In this document: piece after piece, positions 6,875-63,971 of the stretch
How the letters are laid out: each line of letters starts with the position of its first letter
Position numbering within the stretch: position 1 is the stretch's first letter
Origin: a virus
Virus record (IMG/VR): IMGVR_UViG_3300045996_000876
Location: 1 to 64,000 of that record
Length of the DNA stretch: 64,000 bases
Strand: one strand, 5' to 3'
Made by a program: the position numbers and the translations under genes
Notes under the pieces: model-generated
The model's input: only the letters and a program-made list of their open reading frames with translations
What the model was told of the DNA's origin: nothing
Database searches by the model: none

Positions 6875-7393
6875 ATGGGCCAAAAGCCTATGTCTCCGGC
6901 TGATAAGCGGGCTGCCCGCCAACGGCTGGAGGAGCGTAAACAGATCACGATGTCCTGTATCCGGTCGGAAGAGACGACGATACAGCTGACAGAGAAGCTG
7001 GTGAACGCGGCTGACGCGAAGCTGGCGCTGGCTCAGAGGGAGTATGAGGAGACGGTTGCCAAGCTACTGGCCGCTCCTCAGCGTCTAGCGGACCTCCGGA
7101 GGTCTATGGAGGAGATAGGACGGGAGGAGAAGCGGCTGGAGTACGCTTCAACCCTAGAGCGGATGAAGCAGCTGGAGGGAGAGATAACAGCCCTTCAAGC
7201 GGCTCCGAAGGATGGCCAGGCCTTCGTTGACGCTCGCGGAACCTTCCACTGCCCCAACGGCCATAAGCACTCACGCGGACCGCTGGATGGCGTGAATCTC
7301 TATCGTTGCTTTGGCTGTCCGACCGATAACAAGAGCGGGCCAAAGACCTACCGGGTATCTCCCGAACACGATCAGCGAGTAGCGAAGAGATGA
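6875..7393 (+). CDS. Coiled-coil protein with C-terminal zinc finger, 172 aa
   Basis: The frame is open back to a TTG in the promoter, but the first sensible start after the predicted transcript start is this ATG (RBS GGAGACTCCG). Residues 5-120 are a long charged coiled coil. The C-terminus holds FHCPNGHKHS and YRCFGC, a zinc-ribbon-like CPxGH...CxxC set. The stop overlaps the methyltransferase start as ATGA. Likely a DNA- or RNA-associated accessory protein. Confidence 0.7.
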   Translation: MGQKPMSPADKRAARQRLEERKQITMSCIRSEETTIQLTEKLVNAADAKLALAQREYEETVAKLLAAPQRLADLRRSMEEIGREEKRLEYASTLERMKQLEGEITALQAAPKDGQAFVDARGTFHCPNGHKHSRGPLDGVNLYRCFGCPTDNKSGPKTYRVSPEHDQRVAKR

Positions 7394-8175
7394 TTGACCA
7401 ACACCCAAATATCCAAGTTGACCTCGCCACCTTCGTTCACGCGGATGCCTGCGACTTCCTGGTCCAACATACCGCCTACGGCGATACCCCTGCGATCATC
7501 TTCGCAGACCCTCCGTTCAACATCGGAGTAGAGTACGCCACCGCTGACGACGACAAGCCGGATGACCAGTACCTCAAATGGACTGAGACGTGGTTTGGGC
7601 TCGCGGCGGGCTGTCTCGCGGCTGACGGCTCCCTCTGGGTGAACATCCCGGACCGTTGGGCGGCGGAGTTTGTCTTGCTGGGCAAGCGGCTCGGGCTGAA
7701 GTTGGAGAACTGGGCTATTTGGCACCACCGCTTCGGCACTTGGCAACCCAAGCGGTTTATCGTCTCCAAGACGCACGCTCTGTGGTTCAGCAAGGGCAAA
7801 CCCTTCGTTGACCCGACAGCGGCTCTAGTCCGGAGCGATCGCGCGGCGATCTATTCCGATGCCCGGACGGTTGACAACGCGGGCTGGCGTATGGAGCTTG
7901 ACGTTTGGGGCTTCGATCCTTACTGGGGAAGAGTCCAAGGCAACAACCGGGAGCGCCGCCCGCTCCATCCTAACCAACTCCCGGAGCAGTACCTGAAGCG
8001 GATCATTTCCGTATGCTCCGAAGAAGGCCACACCGTCCTGGACCCGTTCTGCGGCTCGGGTACGACAGCGACCGTCGCCAATGCTCTCCGCCGCTACTGC
8101 GTTACCTCCGATGTGTCGGAGGTCTATTTGAAATCCGCCGCAGAGCGATGTGCTCTCGGGATGATCGCGAGATAG
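7390..8175 (+). CDS. DNA methyltransferase (beta-class amino-MTase), 261 aa
   Basis: Catalytic motif DPPF at residues 40-43 comes before the SAM-binding motif DPFCGSGTT at 218-226, the order of beta-class N6-adenine or N4-cytosine methyltransferases (N6_N4_Mtase fold). It also has a CxxGH-free, compact middle with many Trp residues. No restriction endonuclease lies beside it, so it is probably an orphan enzyme that protects phage DNA or imitates host methylation. The target sequence cannot be read from the gene. Confidence 0.9.
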   Translation: MIDQHPNIQVDLATFVHADACDFLVQHTAYGDTPAIIFADPPFNIGVEYATADDDKPDDQYLKWTETWFGLAAGCLAADGSLWVNIPDRWAAEFVLLGKRLGLKLENWAIWHHRFGTWQPKRFIVSKTHALWFSKGKPFVDPTAALVRSDRAAIYSDARTVDNAGWRMELDVWGFDPYWGRVQGNNRERRPLHPNQLPEQYLKRIISVCSEEGHTVLDPFCGSGTTATVANALRRYCVTSDVSEVYLKSAAERCALGMIAR

Positions 8176-8623: not shown

Positions 8624-9475
8624 ATGCTTACGTACCAAGACCTCTGCCGCCCGACCGACTACAAGGGTCAGCCCGTTCGCTACGCCCAGAAGAAGGAGGA
8701 TGGGCTACGCTTGCTGGTCTCCATCCTCCCGGGTATCCACGATGAGAAGATCATCAGCGCGGTCACCCGCGAAGGGAAGACAGACCACGCGGTGAACCTT
8801 CTGAAGGTCGATTCGATCTGGACCAAGCTCGCAACGCTTCCCGTCTATACGCAGTTGGACTGCGAGATTCACGTGCCCAACGTTCAGGCGACCAACGTCA
8901 TCACCCACCTTCTCTCCGGCTCGAATTCGCTCAAGCTCTCTCCGTTCGCAATGCCCTTCTTCTATGGGCAAGACCTGCGCGGCTGGGAGCTTCCCGACGT
9001 CATTTCGAAGATGAGAGACTTGGGGCTGGACCCGGTACCGGTGACGCTCCTTACTGGGAAGCTTGAAGAAGCGCTCTGGCTCCAGCGGGCGAGGGATATG
9101 CGGGCGGAAGGCTTCGTGCTCAAGCAGCACCACTACTCCGGCTGGTTCAAGCTCAAGCCGGTTAAGACGGCTGACTGCGTTGTGATGGGTTATACCCTTT
9201 CCGACTCTACAACCTACTTCGGAGACCTAAAAGCGGTCCAAGTAGGCGTGATTGATACGACCAGCAAGAAGCTGGTAGAGGTCGCCAGCTTAGGGACTGG
9301 CTTCTCTGCGGAGCAGAGACGGGCTTACGGACAGAAGCCTGGCGACCTCTTGGGCAAAGTGTGTGAGGTTCAATACGATTCGCTTGCTGGGCAAGGCAAG
9401 CTCAAGTTCCCGCGTTTCGTCGGGTGGCGGGTGGATAAGCTCGCGGAAGAGTGTACCAGTAAGCAGCTGGTGTAA
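8624..9475 (+). CDS. ATP-dependent DNA ligase, 283 aa
   Basis: Nucleotidyltransferase motifs appear in order: motif I KEDGLR with adenylated Lys24, LDCEI (motif III), AEGFVLK (IV) and WFKLKP (V). A C-terminal OB-fold part ends in LKFPRFVGWRVDK. About 280 residues is the size of compact phage ligases. It joins nicks in phage DNA during replication and repair. RBS AGGAGATAGATAG. Confidence 0.92.
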   Translation: MLTYQDLCRPTDYKGQPVRYAQKKEDGLRLLVSILPGIHDEKIISAVTREGKTDHAVNLLKVDSIWTKLATLPVYTQLDCEIHVPNVQATNVITHLLSGSNSLKLSPFAMPFFYGQDLRGWELPDVISKMRDLGLDPVPVTLLTGKLEEALWLQRARDMRAEGFVLKQHHYSGWFKLKPVKTADCVVMGYTLSDSTTYFGDLKAVQVGVIDTTSKKLVEVASLGTGFSAEQRRAYGQKPGDLLGKVCEVQYDSLAGQGKLKFPRFVGWRVDKLAEECTSKQLV

Positions 9476-9817: not shown

Positions 9818-10177
9818 GTGACTGAGCCAATCTTCGTTCCAACCGCGTACGATCCCGATGCCCCGCCGCTCATTGATCCCTCTGATCCTAACTATACGAT
9901 GGTCAACTTCGTATATGTCTGTACGTCGTGTCAGACCGCGTTTGTCAAGGGAACCTACCCGCGAGACATTGGCTACTCTTACTTCGCGCGGCTGGTTCGC
10001 GGAGAACGGTTCATTGAGCTCCCGGGCGGTGAGGGAGTCGCCCAGCAAGAGCCGCACGCCTGCCCTGACCAGATCGGACATAAGGGTCCGGACCTCCTTG
10101 GAATCGCGGTTCTGGCCCAACTGAAGTACGCTGATCAACCACTCGTCATACGGAAGGCACCCAATGGGAACACGTGA
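9818..10177 (+). CDS. Hypothetical protein with Cys pair, 119 aa
   Basis: GTG start after GAGGAGACTCCC. CTSC near residue 35 and HxCPDQ near 81 could form a zinc ribbon. The N-terminus is Pro/Asp-rich. The 3' end overlaps the next gene by 14 bases, so it is probably the first gene of the hypermodification operon; its role in that pathway is unknown. Confidence 0.6.
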   Translation: MTEPIFVPTAYDPDAPPLIDPSDPNYTMVNFVYVCTSCQTAFVKGTYPRDIGYSYFARLVRGERFIELPGGEGVAQQEPHACPDQIGHKGPDLLGIAVLAQLKYADQPLVIRKAPNGNT

Positions 10178-11186
10178 AGAGTTTGAGCACGGCTCGTCCG
10201 ACGTTGAAGACTTCTTCTATTGGATCAACGAGCGTCACTCCATCTACCTGAAGCGGGCTGCTGGGCTCCCGAAGCCTTGGACCAACGACGAAGTTCTCCG
10301 GGACTACAAGTTCACCAATGCCTTCCGCGAGCTTGACCGTGGAACGGTCGCTCTCCGGGCGATGGAGAAGGATGTCGTGAAGCTGTGGCGGTTCGGCCAT
10401 CAGCCGTTCGATGCCGCCGCGATCATATTCAATACCTTCTGGTACCGCTTCTTCAACCTGGACATCCACGCGTACAGGCTGGGGATGTGCGACTACGAAA
10501 CGCTCCAGACGTATATCTTCAAGAAGGTAGATGCCGACCAACAGGTGTTTACGGGTGCTCATATCGTCCGGGGTATCGGCTCCTCTCTCTCCGGAGCGGT
10601 AGGGAGCTTCAAGCACTACGATACGCTCCACGACCGTATCAAACGCGGGATGGGCGTGCTGAAGGCTTTTGACTACCTCGCCTTGGCCCATGAGATATGG
10701 TATGACCGTTACGAACTCGCGGCCAAGTTCGCGGAGTGTAAAACTCTCCAGCAAGCCTTCGACATTATCCAAGGGTACTTCTTGCTGGGCGACTTCACCA
10801 GCTACGAACTCGTGTGCGACCTCCGCTGGACTCTTCTCTCGCACTGTACAGATATCCTGACCTGGGGCAACGTCGGCAACGGCGCAGTACGCGGGCTGAA
10901 GCGGCTCGGGCTGAAGCCAACTTCGGAGTCGATGGTCTATCTGTGGATGGAAGCTCCGGAGTATCTGAGCCCGGATGTCCGGTCTCATCACATCGCTAGC
11001 TACAGTGACGCCTTCGTTCCGACCAACCCAGTTCATATGAAAGACTACCTGCGGGACTGGGTTGGGCTCACTACGTTCCCGCCGTTTGAAATCCGCGAAA
11101 TTGAACATTCTCTGTGCGAGTTCGACAAATACATTCGGGCCAAGTCGGGACAGGGCAGACCGCGTTCCAAGTATGACGGGAGATAG
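10164..11186 (+). CDS. aGPT-Pplase clade 1-like protein (thymine hypermodification), 340 aa
   Basis: The N-terminal block (WINERHSIYLKR...PWTNDEVLRDYKFTN followed by AFRELDRGT, residues 20-61) matches the family named alpha-glutamyl/putrescinyl thymine pyrophosphorylase clade 1, found in phages with modified thymine. Members are helical DNA-base-modifying proteins or glycosylase-fold relatives. Its neighbours (kinase, amino acid:DNA transferase, PLP and radical SAM enzymes) support a role in modifying hydroxymethyluracil in DNA. The start is the ATG inside the end of the preceding gene, and no alternative fits better. The exact reaction of clade 1 is not known to me. Confidence 0.8.
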   Translation: MGTREEFEHGSSDVEDFFYWINERHSIYLKRAAGLPKPWTNDEVLRDYKFTNAFRELDRGTVALRAMEKDVVKLWRFGHQPFDAAAIIFNTFWYRFFNLDIHAYRLGMCDYETLQTYIFKKVDADQQVFTGAHIVRGIGSSLSGAVGSFKHYDTLHDRIKRGMGVLKAFDYLALAHEIWYDRYELAAKFAECKTLQQAFDIIQGYFLLGDFTSYELVCDLRWTLLSHCTDILTWGNVGNGAVRGLKRLGLKPTSESMVYLWMEAPEYLSPDVRSHHIASYSDAFVPTNPVHMKDYLRDWVGLTTFPPFEIREIEHSLCEFDKYIRAKSGQGRPRSKYDGR

Positions 11187-11189
11187 ACT

Positions 11190-11426
11190 ATGCCGGTGAG
11201 TCCCTACGCTCCTCCGCCCGGTTATATTGACGTGAAGACCTTCGCGAAGCTGGTGAACCGCGACAAGGATTTCATCCACAAACTTACGCGAATCAATATG
11301 ATCCCAACACTGTCGCGTGGTCCGAAGCGGCGATATATCGCTCAGCATTACGTGGCGAAGTTCCCGCAGATTCTCGAAAGTTACAAGCTTTCTTCCAATG
11401 CTCGTTACACAGGAGGTACGCGGTGA
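11190..11426 (+). CDS. Small helix-turn-helix protein, 78 aa
   Basis: RBS GGGAGATAGACT. Residues 13-45 (DVKTFAKLVNRDKDFIHKLTRINMIPT) read as a MerR/excisionase-like winged HTH (DNA-binding, helix-turn-helix_17 type), followed by a basic RGPKRRY wing. It may regulate the operon or guide a modification enzyme. Its stop overlaps the kinase start (GTGA). Confidence 0.7.
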   Translation: MPVSPYAPPPGYIDVKTFAKLVNRDKDFIHKLTRINMIPTLSRGPKRRYIAQHYVAKFPQILESYKLSSNARYTGGTR

Positions 11427-12007
11427 TATACGATCTGAGAGGAACAAACGGCTCTGGGAAGTCTACCATTGTTTTCGAGATGATGAAGGTGTTCGAATTC
11501 GCTGAGCATCCGTACCCGTTCGGGAGCACCGACAAGCCGGATTACTTCTTCAACGAGTGCCGGGCGCTGAACCTTATCGTCATCGGGAAGTACCGGACGC
11601 AGTGCGGCGGCTGCGATGGGATCACGTCGCAGGACCGTATTACCTCCGCGTGCCGGCACTGGGCTCTCGTGGAGGGTAGGAACGTCATCATTGAGGGCTC
11701 AATCGTCGCGAGCGTATTTGACCGCTGGAACAAGCTCGCGATCCAGGCCAACGACGATTACACGTTCTGCTTCCTGGACACGCCCGTTGAAGTCTGTATC
11801 GAGCGGGTGAAGAGTCGGAGAGCGGAAGCGAACAACACCGATGTCTTCGACCCGTATAAGACGCTGGTGCCCCGCTTCGGACAGATCAACCGTGTCTGGG
11901 CGAAGTGCCTGGACGCTAAACGCAAGTGCGCAGTTATCGAACACCAGCGAGCGTATGCCTCCTTCATGGAGTTGTACAATGCGACGCACCGTAGAGCCGT
12001 GGACTGA
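11423..12007 (+). CDS. P-loop 5-hydroxymethyluracil DNA kinase-like protein, 194 aa
   Basis: Walker A GTNGSGKST at residues 7-15, then IGKYRTQCGGCDGI (55-66), a GKY...GGxD signature seen in the phage 5-hmdU DNA kinases of thymidine hypermodification. DTPVEVCIERVKSRR is the LID/nucleoside-kinase-like part. The known family phosphorylates 5-hmdU already in DNA to activate it for attack by an amino acid. GTG start with a full AGGAGG RBS and a 4-base overlap with the HTH gene. The family call rests on motifs and context. Confidence 0.85.
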   Translation: MIYDLRGTNGSGKSTIVFEMMKVFEFAEHPYPFGSTDKPDYFFNECRALNLIVIGKYRTQCGGCDGITSQDRITSACRHWALVEGRNVIIEGSIVASVFDRWNKLAIQANDDYTFCFLDTPVEVCIERVKSRRAEANNTDVFDPYKTLVPRFGQINRVWAKCLDAKRKCAVIEHQRAYASFMELYNATHRRAVD

Positions 12008-12027: not shown

Positions 12028-13041
12028 ATGGCGACCTTGAGGACAACGATGACTTTGAATTTTGAGCTCACTTCGAACGAACTGATGAACGACTTCTTGG
12101 ACTACTCCAAGTACAGCATCTGGTCGAAAGACGTTGACCCGGTGTACGACGTTCTCAAGGCCATCCACCGCTTGCTGGGCTACGGAGAAGGAGACCGCGA
12201 CAACCGGGTGAAGCATACGTTCTGGTATCTCTCCTGGTACAACCTGATGTCGGCGCAGGAGGCATGGAACTACGTGACGGAGACCGGTGACGAGCTTCCG
12301 GATTACAACCTGTGTAAGCTCCCGACCGGGATAGAGCGCCGCGGATTCCGAGACGGCTACCAGATGATGAAGCATATGGAGTCGCTCCAAAAGATCGCGG
12401 CTGACTGGAACAACGCTCATAACAGGGACGGCCAAGGCTGGTTTGACGACTGGATCGCGGCAGGCTTCACGAACAACGCCAAGGTCAACTGGGGTATCGC
12501 CTATGAACGGCTCCAGACGGTCTACGGGAACGGACGCTGGGCAGCATATAAGGGCTGCGAACTTCTCCAGAAGGTCTGCGGGCTAAACTTGGAACCTCCC
12601 GATATGGGACACAAGGGAAGCTCCGGACCGCGCAAGGGTCTGGCGATGCTCTTTCGGGATTGTCCCGCTCACGGCGATCAGAGCGCGCAAGCCATCGAGC
12701 TACTTGACCGGATGAGTGACGACTTGCTGGATCATATGCGCAAGTGGTATAGCGACAACCCCGTTGTCCAAGACCTAGGCGTGGTGGAAACTTGTCTCTG
12801 CGACTTCCACTCGATGGCTCACGGCGGGTATTACGTCGGGCACGACATCGACCTGATGCAGGAAGGTGTCAGCAAGTCAAAAGCTCCGCAGGAGGTGAAA
12901 GACCTTCTGTGGAACGCGCGAGCGGTAGCGCTGCCGCACCACTACCTTGGCGAGCTTGGCGGCTGGAACGGCGTGGACAAAGATCGCAAGCGAGCTTACC
13001 GTGATCAGAACGTGATCATGATTCGCGGAGAACTGGAATGA
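12028..13041 (+). CDS. Amino acid:DNA transferase-like protein (aGPT-Pplase clade 2), 337 aa
   Basis: The N-terminal region (DPVYDVLKAIHRLLG...WYLSWYNLMSAQEAW, then ERRGFRD) matches the amino acid:DNA transferase (AADT/ADDT) family, which replaces the pyrophosphate on activated 5-hmdU with an amino acid. A large helical domain and a C-terminal segment with CLCDFHSMAHGGYYVGHDID may hold metal ligands. ATG 12028 is used; ATG 12049, with GAGG upstream, is an equally good start. The stop overlaps the next small gene (ATGA). Confidence 0.82.
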   Translation: MATLRTTMTLNFELTSNELMNDFLDYSKYSIWSKDVDPVYDVLKAIHRLLGYGEGDRDNRVKHTFWYLSWYNLMSAQEAWNYVTETGDELPDYNLCKLPTGIERRGFRDGYQMMKHMESLQKIAADWNNAHNRDGQGWFDDWIAAGFTNNAKVNWGIAYERLQTVYGNGRWAAYKGCELLQKVCGLNLEPPDMGHKGSSGPRKGLAMLFRDCPAHGDQSAQAIELLDRMSDDLLDHMRKWYSDNPVVQDLGVVETCLCDFHSMAHGGYYVGHDIDLMQEGVSKSKAPQEVKDLLWNARAVALPHHYLGELGGWNGVDKDRKRAYRDQNVIMIRGELE

Positions 13042-13190: not shown

Positions 13191-14018
13191 GTGATCAACC
13201 ATAACACCCCAATCGAAGCCTACGAAGTTCACGGCAGGGAAGTTCTCGTCAAGCGTGACGACCTGTGCGCAGACCCGCCCGCACCGTCATTGGCGAAGAT
13301 TCGCGGAGCGTACGCCCATATCAAGGAGCTCAAGCAATCCGTCATCGGGAACCTCGATGCGTCCCACTCGCGGAACGGCTGGGTTGTCGCTGCGGTCTGT
13401 AAGATGCTCGGCAAGCACTGTGTGGGGTACTACCCGCAGAGCGTCAAGGATCGCGGCGTCAAGGATCAGCAAAAGAAGATTCTGGAACTGGGCGGCTCGA
13501 TTGTTGCCCTGCCAGCCGGCCGCTCCGCGATCCTGTACGCCACGGCTCGGAAGCACCTGGCCGCGACGTTTGCCGACAGCTACCTGATGCCCAACGCTCT
13601 CAAGCTGAATGAGACCGTCTGGGAGGTAGCGAAGGAGGTAGTTGACTCGCGGGATAGCCTTCCGGAGTCGGGCAGCATCGTTATCCCTGCGGGAACCGGT
13701 ACAATTGCGTCAGGAGTGGTGGAAGGCTTGATCCGTCTGGGCAGGGCGGAGTCTTACACCATCTGCGTTCACCTGGGCTATACGCGGGCACGGGAAGCGG
13801 TGGAGAGCTATATCCAGTCGAATCTCTGCCGCCCGATACCGGGCTTGCTGTACGTCGATGAGGGCTGGGATTACTCCGATGAGGCCAAGGAGACGGCGGT
13901 TGCGCCATTCCCTGCGTGTACTTACTATGAACTGAAGGCGTGGGACTGGATGACCCGCCCGGAAGTGCTACGGACGTTCAAGCCGGGACCGGTGGTGTTC
14001 TGGAATAGCGGCAATTAA
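13191..14018 (+). CDS. PLP-dependent enzyme, fold type II (ACC deaminase/D-cysteine desulfhydrase-like), 275 aa
   Basis: VKRDDLCADP...SLAKIRGA (residues 20-40) is the KRDDL...K pattern of ACC deaminase-type PLP enzymes, with Lys36 the likely Schiff-base lysine. ASHSRNGW is the substrate-carboxylate region and PAGTGTIASG the phosphate-binding loop. At 275 residues it is shorter than the usual 330. In hypermodification pathways a PLP enzyme trims the amino acid attached to thymine, for example by decarboxylation; that role is inferred from context. GTG start. Confidence 0.82.
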   Translation: MINHNTPIEAYEVHGREVLVKRDDLCADPPAPSLAKIRGAYAHIKELKQSVIGNLDASHSRNGWVVAAVCKMLGKHCVGYYPQSVKDRGVKDQQKKILELGGSIVALPAGRSAILYATARKHLAATFADSYLMPNALKLNETVWEVAKEVVDSRDSLPESGSIVIPAGTGTIASGVVEGLIRLGRAESYTICVHLGYTRAREAVESYIQSNLCRPIPGLLYVDEGWDYSDEAKETAVAPFPACTYYELKAWDWMTRPEVLRTFKPGPVVFWNSGN

Positions 14019-14125
14019 TACTCCGGACTGTGCGGAGCTCATCGGGGCTTTGGTGGACTACCGATCCACGACCTATATTGCTCACTCAGTGACCAGCCGG
14101 GAGAGTAGCGGCATTTGGAGACTCT

Positions 14126-14311
14126 ATGAGACATTTCCTCCTTCGTATCGCGGTACGCTTCCGGCTCGTGCGGCTCTCCGACTGGTTGATCAACACGTGC
14201 GACCGGGAGGGTGGCGAGTGTTCCAAGTGCGGAGCGACTTGCTGCCCCTATGGCGACCCGCTTCACTTCCACCACGATGGTTGTCCCTCTTGCTGGCAGG
14301 ATGAGCTATGA
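14126..14311 (+). CDS. Small Cys/His-rich zinc-binding protein, 61 aa
   Basis: RBS GGAGACTCT. A basic helical N-terminus is followed by CSKCGATCC, a HFHHDG stretch and CPSC, enough ligands for one or two zinc ions. The 107-base gap before it holds no supported gene; a GTG frame at 14050 runs through it but overlaps this better-supported gene. The stop overlaps the next start (ATGA). Confidence 0.6.
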   Translation: MRHFLLRIAVRFRLVRLSDWLINTCDREGGECSKCGATCCPYGDPLHFHHDGCPSCWQDEL

Positions 14312-14568
14312 AAATCCGTGGATGGAAGTATCGCAAGTCTCACAGCGTAGTTCTCTCCGTGGACAACGGCTCGTTGATCGGGTTCTGTCTACAGCCTGAG
14401 CGGGACTTACATCTATTACACCCGGGTTGGACTCCGGAAAGAATGGACGTCCACGAGCACTTAGAAAAGATGACTGAGGAGGAGGTAAGCAAAGCGTTAG
14501 AAGTCTTACAACGGCTCAACCAAAAGATGGTTCGTGAGCTAATTTCTAGAGGAGACACTGATGGATAA
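14308..14568 (+). CDS. Hypothetical protein, 86 aa
   Basis: Basic start (MKIRGWKYRKSHS), a beta-like segment and a charged helical C-terminus (EEEVSKALEVLQRLNQKMVREL). It overlaps the radical SAM gene by 8 bases, so the two are probably translationally coupled. No family recognised. Confidence 0.6.
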   Translation: MKIRGWKYRKSHSVVLSVDNGSLIGFCLQPERDLHLLHPGWTPERMDVHEHLEKMTEEEVSKALEVLQRLNQKMVRELISRGDTDG

Positions 14569-15967
14569 ATCCCTCTCAGCAGACGAGCTACTGGAGCTCA
14601 CCGACCCGTACGCGTACCACATGCGTTCGGAGGCGCACGAGAACAAGATACCCGTCCAGATCGACCCGGAGACGGGCTGGCGGTATACGTTCCGCGATAT
14701 CGGGATGACCCGGAACGCGGCGCAGGAGAACACCAAGGAGATGAAAGTCTACTTGGACCCGCTGCCCCACGTCGTGCTGGACCAGAACGTACCGCTGCGT
14801 GGCTGGTATAAGTCGAAGGTGGAAAAACCGGGAGTGCGGGAACGTCCGTGCTACACGGAAGCGATCCTGACGCAGCCTTATGGCGGCTTCTGTCATGTGG
14901 GCTGCGGCTTCTGCTACATCAACAACGGCGTGCGCGGTTATCGCGGGCAGGGTATCTCTACCGTTGACCCGTTCTACGGTCAGAAAGCGCGTCGCCAGAT
15001 TGAGAAGATGCGGATGGGTGCGGCCGTCTATATGAGCTCCTTCATCGACCCGTTCATGGAGTTGGAAGAGCACTACCACAACACCCAGAACACCGCCCAG
15101 GCAGCCGTGGATCACGGGCTGCCCATCTTCTTCCTGACCCGCAAGATCGTACCGGGCTGGGCGTACGATCTGCTCAAGGCTTCTCCGTACTCTTACCAGC
15201 AATTCTCGATCAACACCTGTAACCCCGACGATTGGAAGCGGCTCTCTCCACGTGCCGCGACTCTCCCGGAGATGATTGAGCAGGTACGGGAGATGAAGCG
15301 TCACGGCATCTATGTCTCCATCCAGGTCAACCCGATTGTTGCCGGGATAGTCTCCAACGACGACATCGTGGAGTTGATCCATATGCTCGCCCAGGCGGGA
15401 GCGGATCACCTGATCTTTAAGTTTGTGGAGATTGTCTACCCGTCGGTTCCCGGGATGGTTGCCCAGATGAAAGCTCGCTTCGGAGACGAGCGTGGGAGCA
15501 AGTTCGAAGCTCTCTTCTGTGACAACATCGGCGGCGTCAAGACCATCGCGGAGAGCTACCGCAAGGATGCTCTGGACCGCTTCGTCAAGGAGACGAAGAA
15601 GGCGGGCGTGACGATGGGTGTCTGCTATGAGTACGAATATGAGCGGGACAGCCAAGGGAATATTCTCAACTCCACCGGCAAGACGATGGGTGCGAAGTAT
15701 CTCACGGCTGATCAGTGCCATGGTCACCGTGTTCCGATGCATTTCCGGGAGTCGCTGGAGACGCAGTTCACACCGTTCGAAGAATGCCCGCCAAGTGGTT
15801 GTCTTACTTGCGGCGACCAACACGGCGGAGATAACAAGGTGCCTTGCGGGAATACTTCTCTTGGGCGAGCATCCGCTATGCTGCCTGGTGATTACAACGT
15901 CCAGTACCAGACCCTCACCATTGGTGGCCGCTCCGCCGCAGTCGGTTCCGTTCCCGCTCCTGAGTGA
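14561..15967 (+). CDS. Radical SAM enzyme of the hypermodification cassette, 468 aa
   Basis: CHVGCGFC places Cys111, Cys115 and Cys118 as the CxxxCxxC ligands of a radical-SAM [4Fe-4S] cluster. The barrel that follows includes YMSSFIDPF and a spore photoproduct lyase-like layout. A C-terminal Cys set (ECPPSGCLTCGDQ...VPCG) could bind a second metal or cluster. In phage M6-type thymidine hypermodification a radical SAM protein rearranges the glycyl adduct on thymine, and this gene is a good candidate for that step. RBS AGAGGAGACACTG. Confidence 0.85.
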   Translation: MDKSLSADELLELTDPYAYHMRSEAHENKIPVQIDPETGWRYTFRDIGMTRNAAQENTKEMKVYLDPLPHVVLDQNVPLRGWYKSKVEKPGVRERPCYTEAILTQPYGGFCHVGCGFCYINNGVRGYRGQGISTVDPFYGQKARRQIEKMRMGAAVYMSSFIDPFMELEEHYHNTQNTAQAAVDHGLPIFFLTRKIVPGWAYDLLKASPYSYQQFSINTCNPDDWKRLSPRAATLPEMIEQVREMKRHGIYVSIQVNPIVAGIVSNDDIVELIHMLAQAGADHLIFKFVEIVYPSVPGMVAQMKARFGDERGSKFEALFCDNIGGVKTIAESYRKDALDRFVKETKKAGVTMGVCYEYEYERDSQGNILNSTGKTMGAKYLTADQCHGHRVPMHFRESLETQFTPFEECPPSGCLTCGDQHGGDNKVPCGNTSLGRASAMLPGDYNVQYQTLTIGGRSAAVGSVPAPE

Positions 15968-20210: not shown

Positions 20211-20485
20211 TTGACTTGAAGCTAGCTCGGGTAGGCTTCCACGTGTTCTACCAGACGCGTCATGTAAGCTCTCCGGAGTACGGCGTGATCACGCGGATAG
20301 TTGAAGATAAGGCTTGCGCCTTCGTAGACTACCACGACGGCGGACCGCCCAAGCTCACGTATGTGAAAGACCTTCACTGGCCTCCCTACTATTGTGCGAT
20401 GAATGGCGGCGTTCCGGCAGGCCAGCCGTACTCCTCTGCGGAGGAGCTTATCGTGGCGGGGTTGAAAGGTACGGGTGTGAGATGA
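20207..20485 (+). CDS. Hypothetical protein, 92 aa
   Basis: ATGA overlap at both ends. Beta-rich N-terminal half (VGFHVFYQTRHVSSPEYGVITRIVEDKACAFV reads like a small SH3-like barrel), then YVKDLHWPPYYCAMNGG. The barrel-like GVITRIVEDKACAFVDYH recalls nucleic-acid-binding folds. Function unknown. Confidence 0.6.
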   Translation: MIDLKLARVGFHVFYQTRHVSSPEYGVITRIVEDKACAFVDYHDGGPPKLTYVKDLHWPPYYCAMNGGVPAGQPYSSAEELIVAGLKGTGVR

Positions 20486-21102
20486 ATATGCTATTCGTAG
20501 TCACTGGGCTCTCCCGCTCTGGCTCGTCCCTGATGATGCGCTTGCTGGAGGCGGGCGGTATACCCGTGGTGCGGGATGACCCCGACCTAGTGGATGAGGC
20601 GAATCCCCACGGCTACTATGAGTACAAGCCGATCAATGTTCCCAGTAAGACCGCTAACGTGGCGAGGGAGATACTGCGTGCGCATCGGTTTGCGGCGGTG
20701 AAGCTGCTCGCGCCGCGGGTGAATATACTCCCTCCGGGGCTGGGTGAGTACCGGTTCATCTGGATGCGGCGCAACCCGCATGCGATTATGCTGTCCAAGG
20801 AGAAGGCTGTAAAGCTCTGGGCGGAGAAGCGGTACGTTGAGACGGGTGTATGGGACCATATGCCTGTGAACCGGTCGTACCAAGAGCTAAGTGAGCTGGG
20901 GTATAGCTCGCTGGCCCAGGTCATGGACATCCATACCCGCTCCCGGTTCAGCAAGATTGCCCTGGTCAACTATGAAGACTTGGTATCGACTCCTCACCGT
21001 GTGCTGGCGGACCTGACGGGTACCCTGAGCCTGAACTGGACGCTGGACAGGATCAACTATCTTGCGAAGCTGGTGGACCCAAGCTTGAATAGGAATGGGT
21101 GA
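20482..21102 (+). CDS. Sulfotransferase-like P-loop protein, 206 aa
   Basis: VVTGLSRSGSSLMMRLLEAG (residues 6-25) is the 5'-phosphosulfate-binding loop pattern of the sulfotransferase family. YRFIWMRRNPHAIMLS corresponds to the 3'-phosphate-binding Arg/Ser segment. The reaction would move sulfate from PAPS to an unknown acceptor. In a phage with modified bases the acceptor could be DNA or a surface glycan; neither is shown. ATG 20482 or 20488 could start it. Confidence 0.7.
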   Translation: MNMLFVVTGLSRSGSSLMMRLLEAGGIPVVRDDPDLVDEANPHGYYEYKPINVPSKTANVAREILRAHRFAAVKLLAPRVNILPPGLGEYRFIWMRRNPHAIMLSKEKAVKLWAEKRYVETGVWDHMPVNRSYQELSELGYSSLAQVMDIHTRSRFSKIALVNYEDLVSTPHRVLADLTGTLSLNWTLDRINYLAKLVDPSLNRNG

Positions 21103-58261: not shown

Positions 58262-61156
58262 ATGATGATGAATAAAAAGCCTAACCAATCTTCGCTTCCG
58301 ATTGAGAACATCAGCGCTTTAGCGGAGCTAGAGCGGCTTGGCGTCACGGTGGAAATGCGGGCCAACAACGAAGTCCAGATGATCTGCCCCGTCCACGAAG
58401 ATACCAACCCTAGTTTGATGCTCGATACGCAGAAGAATCTTTTCAAGTGCCAGTCGTGTAAAGCTCGCGGCGATATCGTTTCGCTGCTCGCCCACTTCGC
58501 AAAAGTTGACCGGGCGGTCATGCTACAGGACTTGGGCACCCGATACGATCTTGGACTTCACAATACGTTAGACCCGCGAGTTGCGGAGCGGTTCCATGAG
58601 GGTATCTGGTCTGCCGGTCCGCTGCTTCAAGCGTTGTACAGTCGCGGTGTGACGGATTCGATGATACGCAAGGCGCGGCTCGGATTCCATAACGGTCGTA
58701 TCATGATTCCGGTTTATGACGAGCAACGCCGCATCGTCAATATCCGCCGGTATCTTCCGGGCGCTCCCGGTCCGCAGAAGATGTACAACACAAAAGGGTA
58801 CGGGACTCCTCCGAACATCTACCAGATCGAACAGCTGGTCAACTTCAAGAAGAGTTGGATGTGCGGCGGAGAGATGAAGGCGCTAGTCGCGGGAACCTTG
58901 CTGACTCCGAACGATGTCGGTGCGTGGGCTGTCTGCGCAGGTGAAGGTTCCTGGGAAGCTTCGTTTGGGAAGCACGTCAAGGGAAAGACTATCTACATCT
59001 GCTTCGATATCGACCACGCGGGGATGAACGCGAGTCGGAGCGTGGCGAAGCAGCTGGCCCATATCGCGGAAGCAGTCTACATCGTCCGACTTCCGCTGGA
59101 CCGGGAGAAGTTCCCGAAGGGAGACATCAACGATTACGTAGCGTCAACCGGCGCTACCGCTCAAGACCTCCTCCGCTTGATGGAAGAAGCGGAGCTATAC
59201 GTACCGGAGAAGTTCGCGGAGGAGGAGGAGCCCAAAGACGCCCAGCTGATAAAGCTCGCTGAGGCTTCCCGTTCAAACTATATCGGCAAGCGGATTGCGG
59301 TTGACGCGATGGTTCAGGCGATGGACACCACGCCGTATCTCCTCCCGCAAAACGTAGATGTTCAGTGTACCCGCGATCAACCCAATTGCGAATGGTGTCC
59401 TGTAAAGGCGAGTGACCCCGATGAGAAAACAGGCTTGGTTCACTGTACCGTTCGCGGTACTGCTATTGGTATCCTCGACATTGTCCAGTCGCCCAAGGGT
59501 AAGCAACGCGAAGCTCTCCGCGAAGCTCTCAACATCCCGAAGTGTAACGCGTGCGAGTTCTTTGTGCGTTCTCATACGAACGCCTATGACATCCGCCTTA
59601 TGCCACAGCTGGAGACGACGGGCAGCAACTCCGACTACGTGGTCCAGCCTGCTTTCCTGATCGGCGATTACAAGATTGAGACCAACACGCCGTACGTCTT
59701 CAAGGGAAGGGTCCACCCACACCCCAAGAACCAGCAAGCGATCTTGCTGTTCAACGAGATTGGGGAGTCACGGAACTCACTGGACGCGTTCGCACCGACT
59801 CCGGAGCAGTTGGAAGAGATGGATGTATTCAAGTCCACGGAGTATACGGTAGAGAGCATCACGGAGAAGCTGGACGCGATCTACACCGACATGGAAGCGA
59901 ACGTCACGCGAATCTATAAGCGCCGCGAGCTTCACTTGGTTCTGGACCTGATGTACCATTCGATCTTATACCTCACCTTTGACGAGCGGAAGGAACGCGG
60001 CTGGGTCAACGTCGTAATCGTAGGCGACTCGTCTCAGGGTAAGTCGGAAGCTTCACAGGCGATGATGAAGCACTACCGGCTTGGCGAGCGAATCGACTGT
60101 AAGAATGCGACAGTAGCGGGCGTGCTAGGTGGCTGCGAGCAGATCGGAAATCACTGGTTCATCTCGTGGGGAACTATCCCCATCCACGATAGGCGGGCGG
60201 TTCTCCTTGAGGAGGTCAAGGGAGCGCCGCTGGAGGTCATCAGTAAGCTTACGGATATGCGGTCATCGGGCATCGCGGAGATTCAGAAGATTGAGAAGCG
60301 ACGTGCCCACGCCCGTACCCGGCTCGCGTTCATCTCCAACGCTCGCGGTACGAAGTCCGTTGATGACCGGAACTTCGGTTGCGAGGTGATTGAGGAGCTA
60401 GCGGGAAGCAAGGAGGATGTCCGCCGCTTTGATGTAGGTATCCTACTCTCCTCCTCTCAGGTCGATCCTTCCACCATTAACCAGTTGATCAAAGACCGTC
60501 CAAGATGCCACCACATCTACACTAGCGACCTGTGCAACCGGCTCGTGCTATGGGCGTGGACCCGGACCGCTGATCAGGTTATCTTCGATCCAGAGGCGAT
60601 CCAGGCGTGTCTTACGGAAGCGAACCGGCTCGCGGGAAAGTTCTCTGAGGAGCTTCCGCTGATCGACAAGGGTACCACCAAGTTCAAGCTTGCCCGCCTT
60701 GCGGCAGGACTTGCTGGGCGTCTGTTCAGTACGGTCGATGGAGACCGGACGAAGCTGCGGGTGACCGCCGCTCATGTCCACTTCATCGCTCAGACGATAG
60801 ACGGCTGGTACAGCGACAAGGTGTTCGGCTATCTCGCGTACTCTCAGGCGCAGGAGTACAAGACCAAGATAAAAGACCCGCATACGATCAGAGCCCAGAT
60901 CATGAACACTCGCTTCCCGTCCGACCTAGTGGATGGGCTTCTGAATCGAAACGAAATTCAGCTAGGCGACTTCCAGGACTGGTGTCAGCTGGATCGCGAC
61001 GGCGCTCAATCGCTCCTCTCCTTCCTGGTTCGCAAACACGCGTTGAACCGGGAGAAAAGATATTACGTCAAGTCCGGTCAGTTCATCGAGTTCCTGAAGA
61101 AGCTTCAAACGGAAGATATCCGCGAGTCACAACCCTTACCTGGTTCGGAGTTCTAA
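58262..61156 (+). CDS. Primase fused to an MCM-like AAA+ helicase domain, 964 aa
   Basis: A CHC2-type zinc finger (CPVHEDTNPSLML...LFKCQSC, 42-66), a TOPRIM-like region (CGGEMKAL near 201, then FDIDHAGM near 243) and an AAA+ module with GDSSQGKSEA at 588-597, LLEE as Walker B and an arginine-rich RRAHARTRLAFISN. The order primase then MCM-like helicase makes one protein for priming and unwinding. Three ATGs in a row start it; the RBS is weak. Confidence 0.85.
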   Translation: MMMNKKPNQSSLPIENISALAELERLGVTVEMRANNEVQMICPVHEDTNPSLMLDTQKNLFKCQSCKARGDIVSLLAHFAKVDRAVMLQDLGTRYDLGLHNTLDPRVAERFHEGIWSAGPLLQALYSRGVTDSMIRKARLGFHNGRIMIPVYDEQRRIVNIRRYLPGAPGPQKMYNTKGYGTPPNIYQIEQLVNFKKSWMCGGEMKALVAGTLLTPNDVGAWAVCAGEGSWEASFGKHVKGKTIYICFDIDHAGMNASRSVAKQLAHIAEAVYIVRLPLDREKFPKGDINDYVASTGATAQDLLRLMEEAELYVPEKFAEEEEPKDAQLIKLAEASRSNYIGKRIAVDAMVQAMDTTPYLLPQNVDVQCTRDQPNCEWCPVKASDPDEKTGLVHCTVRGTAIGILDIVQSPKGKQREALREALNIPKCNACEFFVRSHTNAYDIRLMPQLETTGSNSDYVVQPAFLIGDYKIETNTPYVFKGRVHPHPKNQQAILLFNEIGESRNSLDAFAPTPEQLEEMDVFKSTEYTVESITEKLDAIYTDMEANVTRIYKRRELHLVLDLMYHSILYLTFDERKERGWVNVVIVGDSSQGKSEASQAMMKHYRLGERIDCKNATVAGVLGGCEQIGNHWFISWGTIPIHDRRAVLLEEVKGAPLEVISKLTDMRSSGIAEIQKIEKRRAHARTRLAFISNARGTKSVDDRNFGCEVIEELAGSKEDVRRFDVGILLSSSQVDPSTINQLIKDRPRCHHIYTSDLCNRLVLWAWTRTADQVIFDPEAIQACLTEANRLAGKFSEELPLIDKGTTKFKLARLAAGLAGRLFSTVDGDRTKLRVTAAHVHFIAQTIDGWYSDKVFGYLAYSQAQEYKTKIKDPHTIRAQIMNTRFPSDLVDGLLNRNEIQLGDFQDWCQLDRDGAQSLLSFLVRKHALNREKRYYVKSGQFIEFLKKLQTEDIRESQPLPGSEF

Positions 61157-61158
61157 CC

Positions 61159-61911
61159 ATGTTCAATCTCTCAAAAGCCTTACGGGATTTCCATACCAAG
61201 AATAGCTTCCCCATCGACACCCGCTTGAAGGATCAGCGAGACGAAGCAGCAAACCGCGAGCTAGCGGAGTTGGGTGAGCGGCTCTGTGGGGAGTCGGAAC
61301 GTATCAAACAGCCCGCGCTCCTGCTACAAGCGAAGGGAGATGAGCGGCTTTACCGGGCGCACCTCATGATAGAGGAGCTTGGGGAGACGCTCATTGAGCT
61401 CGCAAGACAGAACTACGTCGGGGTTGCCGACGGGCTTGGCGACCTCCAGTACGTCGTGGAGGGAACCGCGTCAGTGTTCGGGATTCCGATGCCGGAGGTT
61501 CTGGAAGAGATTCACCGGTCGAACATGTCCAAGAAGAAGCGTGACCCGATTACCAATCCACGGATGAGAGATAAAGGTCCAAACTACTCTCCGCCCGATA
61601 TTGTCGGAGCAATTGTTCGCGGGAAGCAGCGAATGAATTGGGAAGCGACAATGGCTGCGAATGAAGAGCTATCCGTGGAGCTACAGCGGAGCTTTGAGCG
61701 GACCGTGGACGGGGAGTTCACAGTCCATCCCGATAAGTGGCCGCTCGTAAGTCCGTTCAAAGATGACTACGCAGCTGATGGGCTCCCGCCTGATTTAAGA
61801 AATGGGTTGACGGCGGATGGACACGGCTTCACCAACAACGACGGAGAACAGGTATGCGTCTGCGGCGGACGCGGCTGTGTCTGTTGTAACACTAACGGAG
61901 ACCCTAAATGA
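61159..61911 (+). CDS. MazG-like/NTP-PPase-type dNTP pyrophosphohydrolase, 250 aa
   Basis: The core (MIEELGETLIELARQNYVGVADGLGDLQYVVEGTASVFGIP, with EELGE and DxxxD-like acidic residues) matches the all-alpha NTP pyrophosphatase (MazG/HisE) superfamily. The C-terminus is Cys-rich (CVCGGRGCVCC). Near a nucleotide-modification set, it may remove a normal dNTP, such as dTTP or dUTP. ATG 61159 is preferred to an upstream frame start inside the primase gene. Confidence 0.8.
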   Translation: MFNLSKALRDFHTKNSFPIDTRLKDQRDEAANRELAELGERLCGESERIKQPALLLQAKGDERLYRAHLMIEELGETLIELARQNYVGVADGLGDLQYVVEGTASVFGIPMPEVLEEIHRSNMSKKKRDPITNPRMRDKGPNYSPPDIVGAIVRGKQRMNWEATMAANEELSVELQRSFERTVDGEFTVHPDKWPLVSPFKDDYAADGLPPDLRNGLTADGHGFTNNDGEQVCVCGGRGCVCCNTNGDPK

Positions 61912-62942
61912 TCCCTGTCTTTGAATCGGTCGATGAGCTCTGGCTCCACGCCGCTAACACCGTCATCGCCTACGGAGAAAACACCGGCTCCCGCGATGGA
62001 GAAAGCCGTGAGGTGCTCGGCTACTGCGGACGGCTCCTTGACCCGCGTTGTAACTTCCTGTTCAACCCGGTCCGCAAGATGTCGCCCAGCTACGCAGCCG
62101 TTGAGACGATGTGGTATCTCTCCGGAACGGACGACACGACGTTACTCCAGCAATACGCTCCGCAGTACAAGCGGTTCACGGAGGATGGTATCCACGCCTT
62201 TGGAGCGTACGGATACCGCTGGGCGGCTGACCTACCGTTCCGGGTTGCGTTCGCAATGGCCTTCGCTCCGGACTTAGTGAACCTGGACCGTCCATGGCCC
62301 AGCGGGAAGTCTATCGGACCGCGAAGCCAGCTGGAAGTCTTGATGCTCCTCCTAAAGGAGAAGCCTGAGACCCGCCAAGCGGTACTTGCTCAGTGGAACG
62401 GTGGAGACCTGGTTTGCGCCGTGGAAGGGAACAAGCGAGACCTGCCCTGTACGCTGAACCTGAGCTTCATCGTTCGCGGCGGAAAGCTCAATATGATCGC
62501 GACGATGCGCAGTAACGATCTGTGGCTCGGAACGCCCAACGACGTTTTCTGCTTCACGATGATACAGCAGGTCGTGGCGAATAACCTTGGGCTGGAGCTA
62601 GGCTGGTACCAACACAACGTTACGTCGCTCCACTACTATCTCCGCAATGAGGAGAAGCTCAAGCAGGCGGCATCCGTCGGTGCGTTCGGTATCGAGCAGC
62701 TACTGACGACCTGTAACGGCTCGCGGCTGAACGACTTCCTGGAGGATATGCTCACCCAGGAGCGTCACAACCGTAATCACGAGATTGCCGGACCAGAGTG
62801 CTTTGGTATCCAAGACAATACTCTTCCGGGCTTGCTGATTCTCATGGCCGCTACCCGGTGGGCAAAGAATCGTGAAGACCTCCTGAAGCGTTTTGATTCG
62901 AAGGTTCTGCGGAAGTTCATTGAGGAGTTCCACCCGTGTTGA
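61908..62942 (+). CDS. ThyA-family pyrimidine hydroxymethylase/methylase-like protein, 344 aa
   Basis: DLPCTLNLSFIV (Cys181, the nucleophile), RSND (201-204), LGTPND and HNVTSLHYY mark the thymidylate synthase fold. Where typical ThyA has PFN (the Asn that reads dUMP), this has P-N-D with Asp at the third position, a feature of dCMP-type hydroxymethylases. It probably makes 5-hydroxymethyl-dUMP or -dCMP. ATGA overlap with the MazG gene. Confidence 0.82.
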   Translation: MIPVFESVDELWLHAANTVIAYGENTGSRDGESREVLGYCGRLLDPRCNFLFNPVRKMSPSYAAVETMWYLSGTDDTTLLQQYAPQYKRFTEDGIHAFGAYGYRWAADLPFRVAFAMAFAPDLVNLDRPWPSGKSIGPRSQLEVLMLLLKEKPETRQAVLAQWNGGDLVCAVEGNKRDLPCTLNLSFIVRGGKLNMIATMRSNDLWLGTPNDVFCFTMIQQVVANNLGLELGWYQHNVTSLHYYLRNEEKLKQAASVGAFGIEQLLTTCNGSRLNDFLEDMLTQERHNRNHEIAGPECFGIQDNTLPGLLILMAATRWAKNREDLLKRFDSKVLRKFIEEFHPC

Positions 62943-63514
62943 TCATCGAAGGTTCCGACAATCTTGGGAAGACAACGGCGTGTAAGCGGCTGGTTGAGAT
63001 CGTAGCGCATGAGCGATGTTTCGCTCCCGCCCGCTATGTCCATATGTCCCGCCCAAACTCCTCCTTCAACTTCTTCACGCACTACCGCGACATGATCAGC
63101 CGGTACGCGGTTCAGGACCGCTTCCACCTTGGCGCTCTCGTCTGGCACGATAACGTCATGTCTAAGACGCGGCTCCGCCTGATCGAGTCCTGGTTGGCTG
63201 AGGTGGGCTCCGTCGTCATCGTATTGATTGCGAGCGATGAGAAGTGGTACGAAGATCACCTGGAGAAGCAGCCCAAGGAGGAGATGTTCAGCCGTGGGCG
63301 TATCCGGGCGGGCAACCGGGAGTTCGCTGAGCTAATCGCAACGGACTACGCGCGTGCGGACTTCGTTCACGACGTATCCAAAGACGGATTCTTGACGGAC
63401 CGCCATCTCAATACGTATTTGGATGAGTGGTACGGTCGTTTATTCCAAGTTGAAAGGGCGGAAAAGTATGATCCACTTATTGGCGTGCCGAACACTCGCG
63501 GCGGCAATGGTTGA
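62936..63514 (+). CDS. dNMP kinase-like P-loop protein, 192 aa
   Basis: P-loop EGSDNLGKTT (5-14), then the thymidylate-kinase-like layout with FHLGALVWHDN and a C-terminal LID-like region (MFSRGRIRAGN). GTG start overlapping the hydroxymethylase stop. It would turn the modified monophosphate into a diphosphate, supplying the polymerase. Confidence 0.78.
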   Translation: MLIIEGSDNLGKTTACKRLVEIVAHERCFAPARYVHMSRPNSSFNFFTHYRDMISRYAVQDRFHLGALVWHDNVMSKTRLRLIESWLAEVGSVVIVLIASDEKWYEDHLEKQPKEEMFSRGRIRAGNREFAELIATDYARADFVHDVSKDGFLTDRHLNTYLDEWYGRLFQVERAEKYDPLIGVPNTRGGNG

Positions 63515-63971
63515 TGAGATTGACCAGTGCGAGGTCTGGGCCAAGGAGCGACAGACGTGCCTGCGTAAGGCAGTTGGTGCCTCCATCGTCAGCCCGAACC
63601 TTGATGGCTCGTTTACGCGGATGATCCGGACCCACAACGGACCTTCCGCGAACGGACACCAATGCTCGAACATCGTAGGTGGGTGCGGCTGCTCCCACTC
63701 CGAACCGCGAGCGATCTTTGAGATGATGAGAGGCGGCTGGCTCGCTCGCGGCCACGTTCGGAAGCTGATCCTGCTCTGTACCTACTCTCCCTGTACGAAC
63801 TGCGCGAACATCATCAACGACTCCGCCATAATCAACGGAGTCGTCTACCGACACCTCACCCAGCACGATACTCTCGGTGTAGACTTGCTGGTCAACAACG
63901 GGCTTGACGTCGTCACCACGGACGAGCTCATGAACGGAAGCAAAGATGATCTTATTGGACAATGGCGTTAG
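63468..63971 (+). CDS. dCMP deaminase-like protein, 167 aa
   Basis: HSE (77-79) and PCTNC (108-112) form the zinc and catalytic motif (HxE...PCxxC) of cytidine/dCMP deaminases. CSNIVGGCGCSHSEPRA precedes it. It converts dCMP (or a hydroxymethyl version) to the uracil form. The ATG at 63468 has an AAAGGGCGG upstream; ATG 63507 is an alternative. Confidence 0.85.
   Translation: MIHLLACRTLAAAMVDEIDQCEVWAKERQTCLRKAVGASIVSPNLDGSFTRMIRTHNGPSANGHQCSNIVGGCGCSHSEPRAIFEMMRGGWLARGHVRKLILLCTYSPCTNCANIINDSAIINGVVYRHLTQHDTLGVDLLVNNGLDVVTTDELMNGSKDDLIGQWR

Follow-up and report, generated by a model that had tools for sequence, protein, structure and literature searches.

A predicted 5-hydroxymethyl-dCTP supply block and an M6-like DNA-tailoring cassette in the same phage genome

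The first 64,000 nucleotides of the IMG/VR virus record IMGVR_UViG_3300045996_000876 (the window) hold a row of four genes that could supply a hydroxymethylated pyrimidine and, elsewhere, a cassette of the kind that decorates such bases in DNA. Does the one feed the other, and which base would then be modified? We consider it probable, the genes, residues, synteny and co-occurrence being direct observations and the enzyme activities all ones that we infer, that the row is a T4-like supply of 5-hydroxymethylcytosine (5hmC) and that the cassette acts on 5hmC. We are less sure of the exact end product of supply and cassette together.

The initial annotation had described a MazG-like pyrophosphohydrolase, a ThyA-type hydroxymethylase (HMase), a dNMP kinase and a dCMP deaminase lying in a row with overlaps at 61159-63971, and this holds: all reading frames are open and intact, with short overlaps (Table 1). 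The first protein has a PRA-PH/MazG domain with the EExxE and D metal motif (EELGE...DGLGD), kept in an alignment of 16 sequences, and its closest PDB structure is the MazG-like DR2231 (1e-4). Its C-terminal tail (61650-61911), with the Cys-rich end CVCGGRGCVCC, is absent from most relatives. For the kinase no family scored over its cut-off, with Thymidylate_kin (Pfam) below it at 0.02; its P-loop GxDxxGKT and DRFH motif are conserved among its relatives, and the profile of the family matched YorR (3.6e-11) and also thymidylate kinases in the PDB. The deaminase carries the zinc motif H-x-E and PCxxC, and its nearest solved relative is the phage dCMP deaminase 4p9c (2e-4). Flanked by primase and PolA, these genes recur in identical order in many IMG/VR contigs, and primase-MazG-HMase-kinase-deaminase-PolA is kept in at least nine viral records besides the window genome, where PolA comes after the deaminase as well. 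This recurrence implies that the block is not a product of chance. The order is largely kept in phage MW202657, and in distant IMG/VR relatives some members are absent or have moved.

Table 1. Genes of the predicted supply block and of the cassette, with window coordinates
Feature	Coordinates	Strand	Evidence
Primase/helicase, first gene of conserved block	58262..61156	+	upstream of MazG
MazG-like NTP pyrophosphohydrolase, probable dCTP pyrophosphatase	61159..61911	+	PRA-PH/MazG Pfam E=1.9e-9, over cut-off
ThyA-family pyrimidine hydroxymethylase (HMase), predicted dCMP 5-hydroxymethylase	61908..62942	+	Cys146, Thr147, Asp177 (E. coli TS numbering); Thymidylat_synt 1e-19, over cut-off
Small P-loop kinase, probable (hydroxymethyl-)dNMP kinase	62936..63514	+	GSDNLGKTT and DRFHLG motifs; PDB profile matches
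dCMP deaminase	63423..63971, likelier start ATG 63468	+	dCMP_cyt_deam_1 2.2e-7, over cut-off; HSE and PCTNC zinc motifs
ATP-dependent DNA ligase	8624..9475	+	marker gene; also precedes HMUDK_hel in relatives
HMUDK_hel, helical-domain protein named after 5hmU DNA kinase	10164..11186	+	PF18723 1.2e-40
P-loop kinase of HMUDK type	11423..12007	+	PF18748 2.2e-11; 48% to G073
ADDT amino acid:DNA transferase	12028..13041	+	PF18724 7.5e-16; 39% to G073 and to actinophage ADDT; 22% to M6 gp51
PLP-dependent (PALP) enzyme of M6 gp52 type	13191..14018	+	47% to M6
Radical SAM (rSAM) protein of M6 gp53 / YuA gp12 type	14561..15967	+	47% to YuA/M6; 69% to IMG/VR relatives

Which pyrimidine the block supplies depends on the HMase. 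The catalytic Cys146 of the thymidylate synthase (TS) fold family is aligned in all sequences, and the window protein has Thr147 and Asp177, the state of the T4 gp42 class (Asp at 177, a residue other than His at 147); Cys-Thr at 146-147 and Asp177 are common to it and T4 gp42 at an identity of only 20%. T147/D177 also occurs in HMases adjoining beta-glucosyltransferase genes (nattely, ATCCB). The dUMP hydroxymethylase of SPO1, gp29, belongs to the same superfamily and is likewise hydroxymethylating, but it has, like the dUMP HMases of M6, YuA, CN1, TM26 and Pam3, Asn147/Asn177 and one extra loop residue; the loop of the window protein reads GTPND where the dUMP class has GAYGAN, and the protein does not have the characters of the SPO1/M6 class. 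Residues 177 and 147 were the best two separators of TS homologues on modified-cytosine contigs (PMC8670742). Since Thr147/Asp177 are shared with T4 gp42 and are the discriminators of that study, we read the HMase as, most likely, a dCMP hydroxymethylase, by which the block would supply 5hm-dCTP; taken by itself, this supply part appears highly probable. The module had been proposed earlier as one for hydroxymethyl-pyrimidines of either kind, and as a prediction it stands, with the base that had been left open now pointed to cytosine by T147/D177. Removal of a competing dNTP by the MazG-like protein, here predicted to be dCTP as with T4 gp56, is plausible.

The four-gene module is ordinary in kind, a T4-like 5hm-dCTP supply with parallels in the MetaGPA network. 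Its predicted activities are the same set as in the T4 5hm-dCTP pathway (gp42 HMase, gp56 dCTPase, gp1 dNMP kinase, cd deaminase), from which it differs in that the presumed dCTPase is MazG-like, that no glucosyltransferase lies beside the block and that primase and PolA belong to the same row of genes. With the TS (D177)/PF01503/PF00383 network of MetaGPA (PMC8670742) it has three domain families and a D177 HMase in common; unlike that network with its 5hmdC carbamoyltransferase, the window has HMUDK, ADDT, PALP and rSAM as tailoring genes, and the carbamoyltransferase family PF02543 had no match in the window genome. One member of this family was shown to act on 5hmC (PMC8670742), and another lies near a D177 HMase in one relative (G068:20554-21582). 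With a presence in only 1 of 32 D177 phages, the carbamoyltransferase was dropped as a general marker of this group.

The cassette had been placed 45 kb away from the supply block, but this figure is an artefact of the linear record. The full record of 68,868 b has a 227-bp direct terminal repeat (99.6% identical), and one ORF of 222 codons spans the record junction; measured on the circle, the HMase and the first gene of the cassette are separated by about 15.9 kb. In relatives, HMase and HMUDK_hel share a strand and are separated by about 9 to 16 kb (counted across contig ends in two of them). As the ligase does in the window, an ORF that looks ligase-like by eye precedes HMUDK_hel in four relatives. 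Supply block and cassette share one replication/modification region. Further upstream of the ligase and cassette lies an N6/N4 DNA methylase (7390-8175; PF01555, 8.6e-39).

The five cassette ORFs are all open. To our knowledge, decorating sets of the HMUDK/ADDT/PALP/radical SAM type are known only for modified T. Of the Pseudomonas phage M6/YuA system for 5-(2-aminoethyl)-dU, the window has HMUDK_hel, kinase, ADDT, PALP and rSAM, the last two at 47%; however, the M6 HMase is N147/N177, the window ADDT shares 22% with M6 gp51, and the window HMUDK_hel lies in a different clade of the tree from that of M6. M6 DNA bears 5-(2-aminoethyl)-dU, made via 5hmU (PMC6449724), and the HMUDK assayed in PMC6457204 phosphorylated 5hmU in DNA and not 5hmC, which speaks against a cassette that acts on 5hmC. 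The search of the whole record for TS-family genes found one, the D177 HMase, and not the dUMP-type hydroxymethylase of the M6-type system; the window genome may work like M6, but we do not class it as an M6-type member. It appears to join an HMase of the C type to tailoring genes that are known from phages of the U type, and a D177 HMase module together with an M6-type tailoring set is a new combination. The proposed link between cassette and module is thus borne out insofar as HMUDK_hel is present in all five of the nearest HMase relatives and both blocks lie in one region; a simple match of bases is not, the cassette types having been described for 5hmU and the HMase being D177.

How might the two blocks work together? 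MazG would cut dCTP, and perhaps dUTP, back to the monophosphate; with methylene-THF, the ThyA-like enzyme would turn dCMP into 5-hydroxymethyl-dCMP, and the small kinase, together with the host NDP kinase, would raise this to 5hm-dCTP, while the deaminase would direct surplus dCMP to dUMP and so keep up the dTTP supply. The neighbouring polymerase would then incorporate 5hmC into DNA, where the HMUDK-type proteins would phosphorylate, and so activate, its hydroxymethyl group, and ADDT would join an amino acid to the activated 5hmC. In M6, the amino acid attached is glycine. By analogy with M6, the radical SAM and PLP enzymes would rearrange and decarboxylate the adduct to 5-aminoethyl cytosine. 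That the whole route is a cytosine counterpart of thymidine hypermodification, leading from a 5hmC-directed HMUDK branch via the amino acid and the rSAM/PLP steps to 5-(2-aminoethyl)-deoxycytidine, is a tentative proposal to which we give slightly less than an even chance.

The deaminase might also be given another part, in a two-step route to 5hmU that we regard as unlikely: the HMase would make 5hm-dCMP, the deaminase 5hm-dUMP and the kinase 5hm-dUTP, and the cassette would act on 5hmU as in M6. Some dCMP deaminases accept 5-substituted dCMP, which counts for this route, and T4 has both a dCMP deaminase and 5hmC, which counts against it. The deaminase gene is adjacent in most relatives, PALP and rSAM are M6-like, every cassette family carries a 5hmU name and the known HMUDK uses 5hmU (PMC6457204), all of which would fit. 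However, such a route would be a detour, given that dUMP-type HMases are widespread, and PF00303, PF01503 and PF00383 are found together on contigs that had been selected for modified cytosine, where the TS homologues are mostly Asp177 (PMC8670742).

For the preferred reading, a cassette acting on 5hmC, it matters how HMUDK_hel and D177 HMases are distributed. Single-sequence scans of viral_contigs with HMase, rSAM and HMUDK_hel gave no match, and alignment queries were needed. In a reverse test, 80 HMUDK_hel loci were chosen by that gene alone and 50 of the records were searched for TS, which was found in 46. When ranked by similarity to the window HMUDK_hel, the closest nine records with a TS were T147/D177 without exception, and the other 37 comprised 34 with N177 and three with D177 (G108, plus G101 and G111 as outliers). 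Six of the closest nine were new or had been met from the other side, with G073, G074, G075 and G077 lying outside the nearest set of the HMase search. In the HMUDK_hel tree the window belongs to a supported clade whose six rows are without exception D177. The HMUDK_hel proteins of two more D177 records, G067 and G069, are distant and fall outside this clade. The window shares HMUDK_hel with ten D177 records. Label shuffles showed no more than that the D177 label is clustered, a result for which shared descent suffices. A matched specificity of this HMUDK_hel clade and the D177 HMases is suggested, although the association may reflect common descent instead. Mixed discriminators were seen in two TS homologues, N147/D177 in G101 (L326) and T147/N177 in G107 (L331).

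The cassettes of relatives bear on a further possibility, which we hold to be quite improbable: 5hmC is made, but the cassette serves another substrate or is an uncoupled recent acquisition. In the sister genome G073, a ligase, HMUDK_hel (46%), the kinase (48%) and ADDT (39%) are followed by an ORF that by eye resembles a ribonucleotide reductase, and a D177 HMase lies some 11 kb upstream of the cassette; neither PALP nor rSAM was seen in the flanks. The window cassette thus looks like one of the G073 type to which the stretch from PALP to rSAM (13191-15967) has been added after ADDT. An uncoupled cassette would agree with the counts for these two genes, since PALP was found in none of 12 D177 relatives searched and the window-type rSAM in none of 24 D177 contigs (in a search run without a positive control), and with the fact that M6-type tailoring elsewhere accompanies N177. 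The readable TS sequences on radical-SAM contigs were all N147/N177, and every A4 match was D177; relatives of PALP and rSAM stand beside N177 (5hmU) HMases or in Tet_JBP contigs in which no C5-methyltransferase was found. The window genome is the single D177 phage in which PALP and rSAM were seen, and since no D177 relative with this rSAM was found, action of the rSAM on cytosine rests on one genome. Against uncoupling speak the HMUDK_hel-kinase-ADDT series shared with the D177 sister G073, HMUDK_hel in ten D177 records and the five open reading frames. ADDT was found in none of 12 D177 contigs in the same search, and G073, found later, does have it. As a pointer to the base ADDT was dropped: its nearest relatives are actinophage ADDTs adjoining Tet_JBP, and since neither these loci nor the Tet_JBP-ADDT-PALP-rSAM contigs yielded a C5-methyltransferase, it does not distinguish C from T. 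Five records (L028, L030, L032, L033 and L098) have a compact Tet_JBP-ADDT-(PALP)-rSAM cassette with no HMUDK in the flanks, no PF00303 in those of the whole records that were searched, and no PF00145; this seems to be an M6-like tailoring set that starts from an oxygenase.

Two other accounts concern the HMase itself. If the Asp177 rule failed and the enzyme acted on dUMP, 5hmU would arise directly as in SPO1 and M6, which would pair simply with the M6-like cassette; we think this very unlikely, given that in all close HMase relatives the two discriminating residues and the length of the loop are those of the dCMP class, and that replacing Asn177 of TS by Asp shifts its substrate from dUMP to dCMP (work cited in PMC8670742). 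A plain thymidylate synthase for dTMP plus nucleotide salvage, as the Pfam and PHROG labels of the HMase would have it, can practically be dismissed, as the protein has D177 in place of the Asn177/His147 of thymidylate synthases, scores far below the NCBIfam thymidylate synthase cut-off (58.6 vs 327 bits) and in its profile matches the CMP 5-hydroxymethylase MilA best in the PDB (5e-67; the best TS reaches 1.6e-37). Like the window HMase, MilA carries Asp where TS has Asn177; its genomic context, mildiomycin synthesis, differs.

If the module feeds the cassette, cytosine too would have a kinase/amino-acid/radical-SAM route, which to date has been described for thymine, and 5hmC would be recognised by one branch of the 5hmU DNA kinases. 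A new DNA base carrying an amine handle would then be expected, and Pfam names such as '5-hmdU DNA kinase' would be an unsafe guide to which base is modified. In this context, other D177 phages have different radical SAM genes near HMUDK_hel, one B12-binding (L222:11386-12675) and one of the SPASM type (L218:949-1959), which possibly represent other 5hmC tailoring. Directly after a radical SAM gene in the former phage, an HMUDK-type kinase is fused to a methyltransferase-like domain (L222:14780-15916). The window itself also encodes a sulfotransferase-family protein (PF13469) at 20314-21102.
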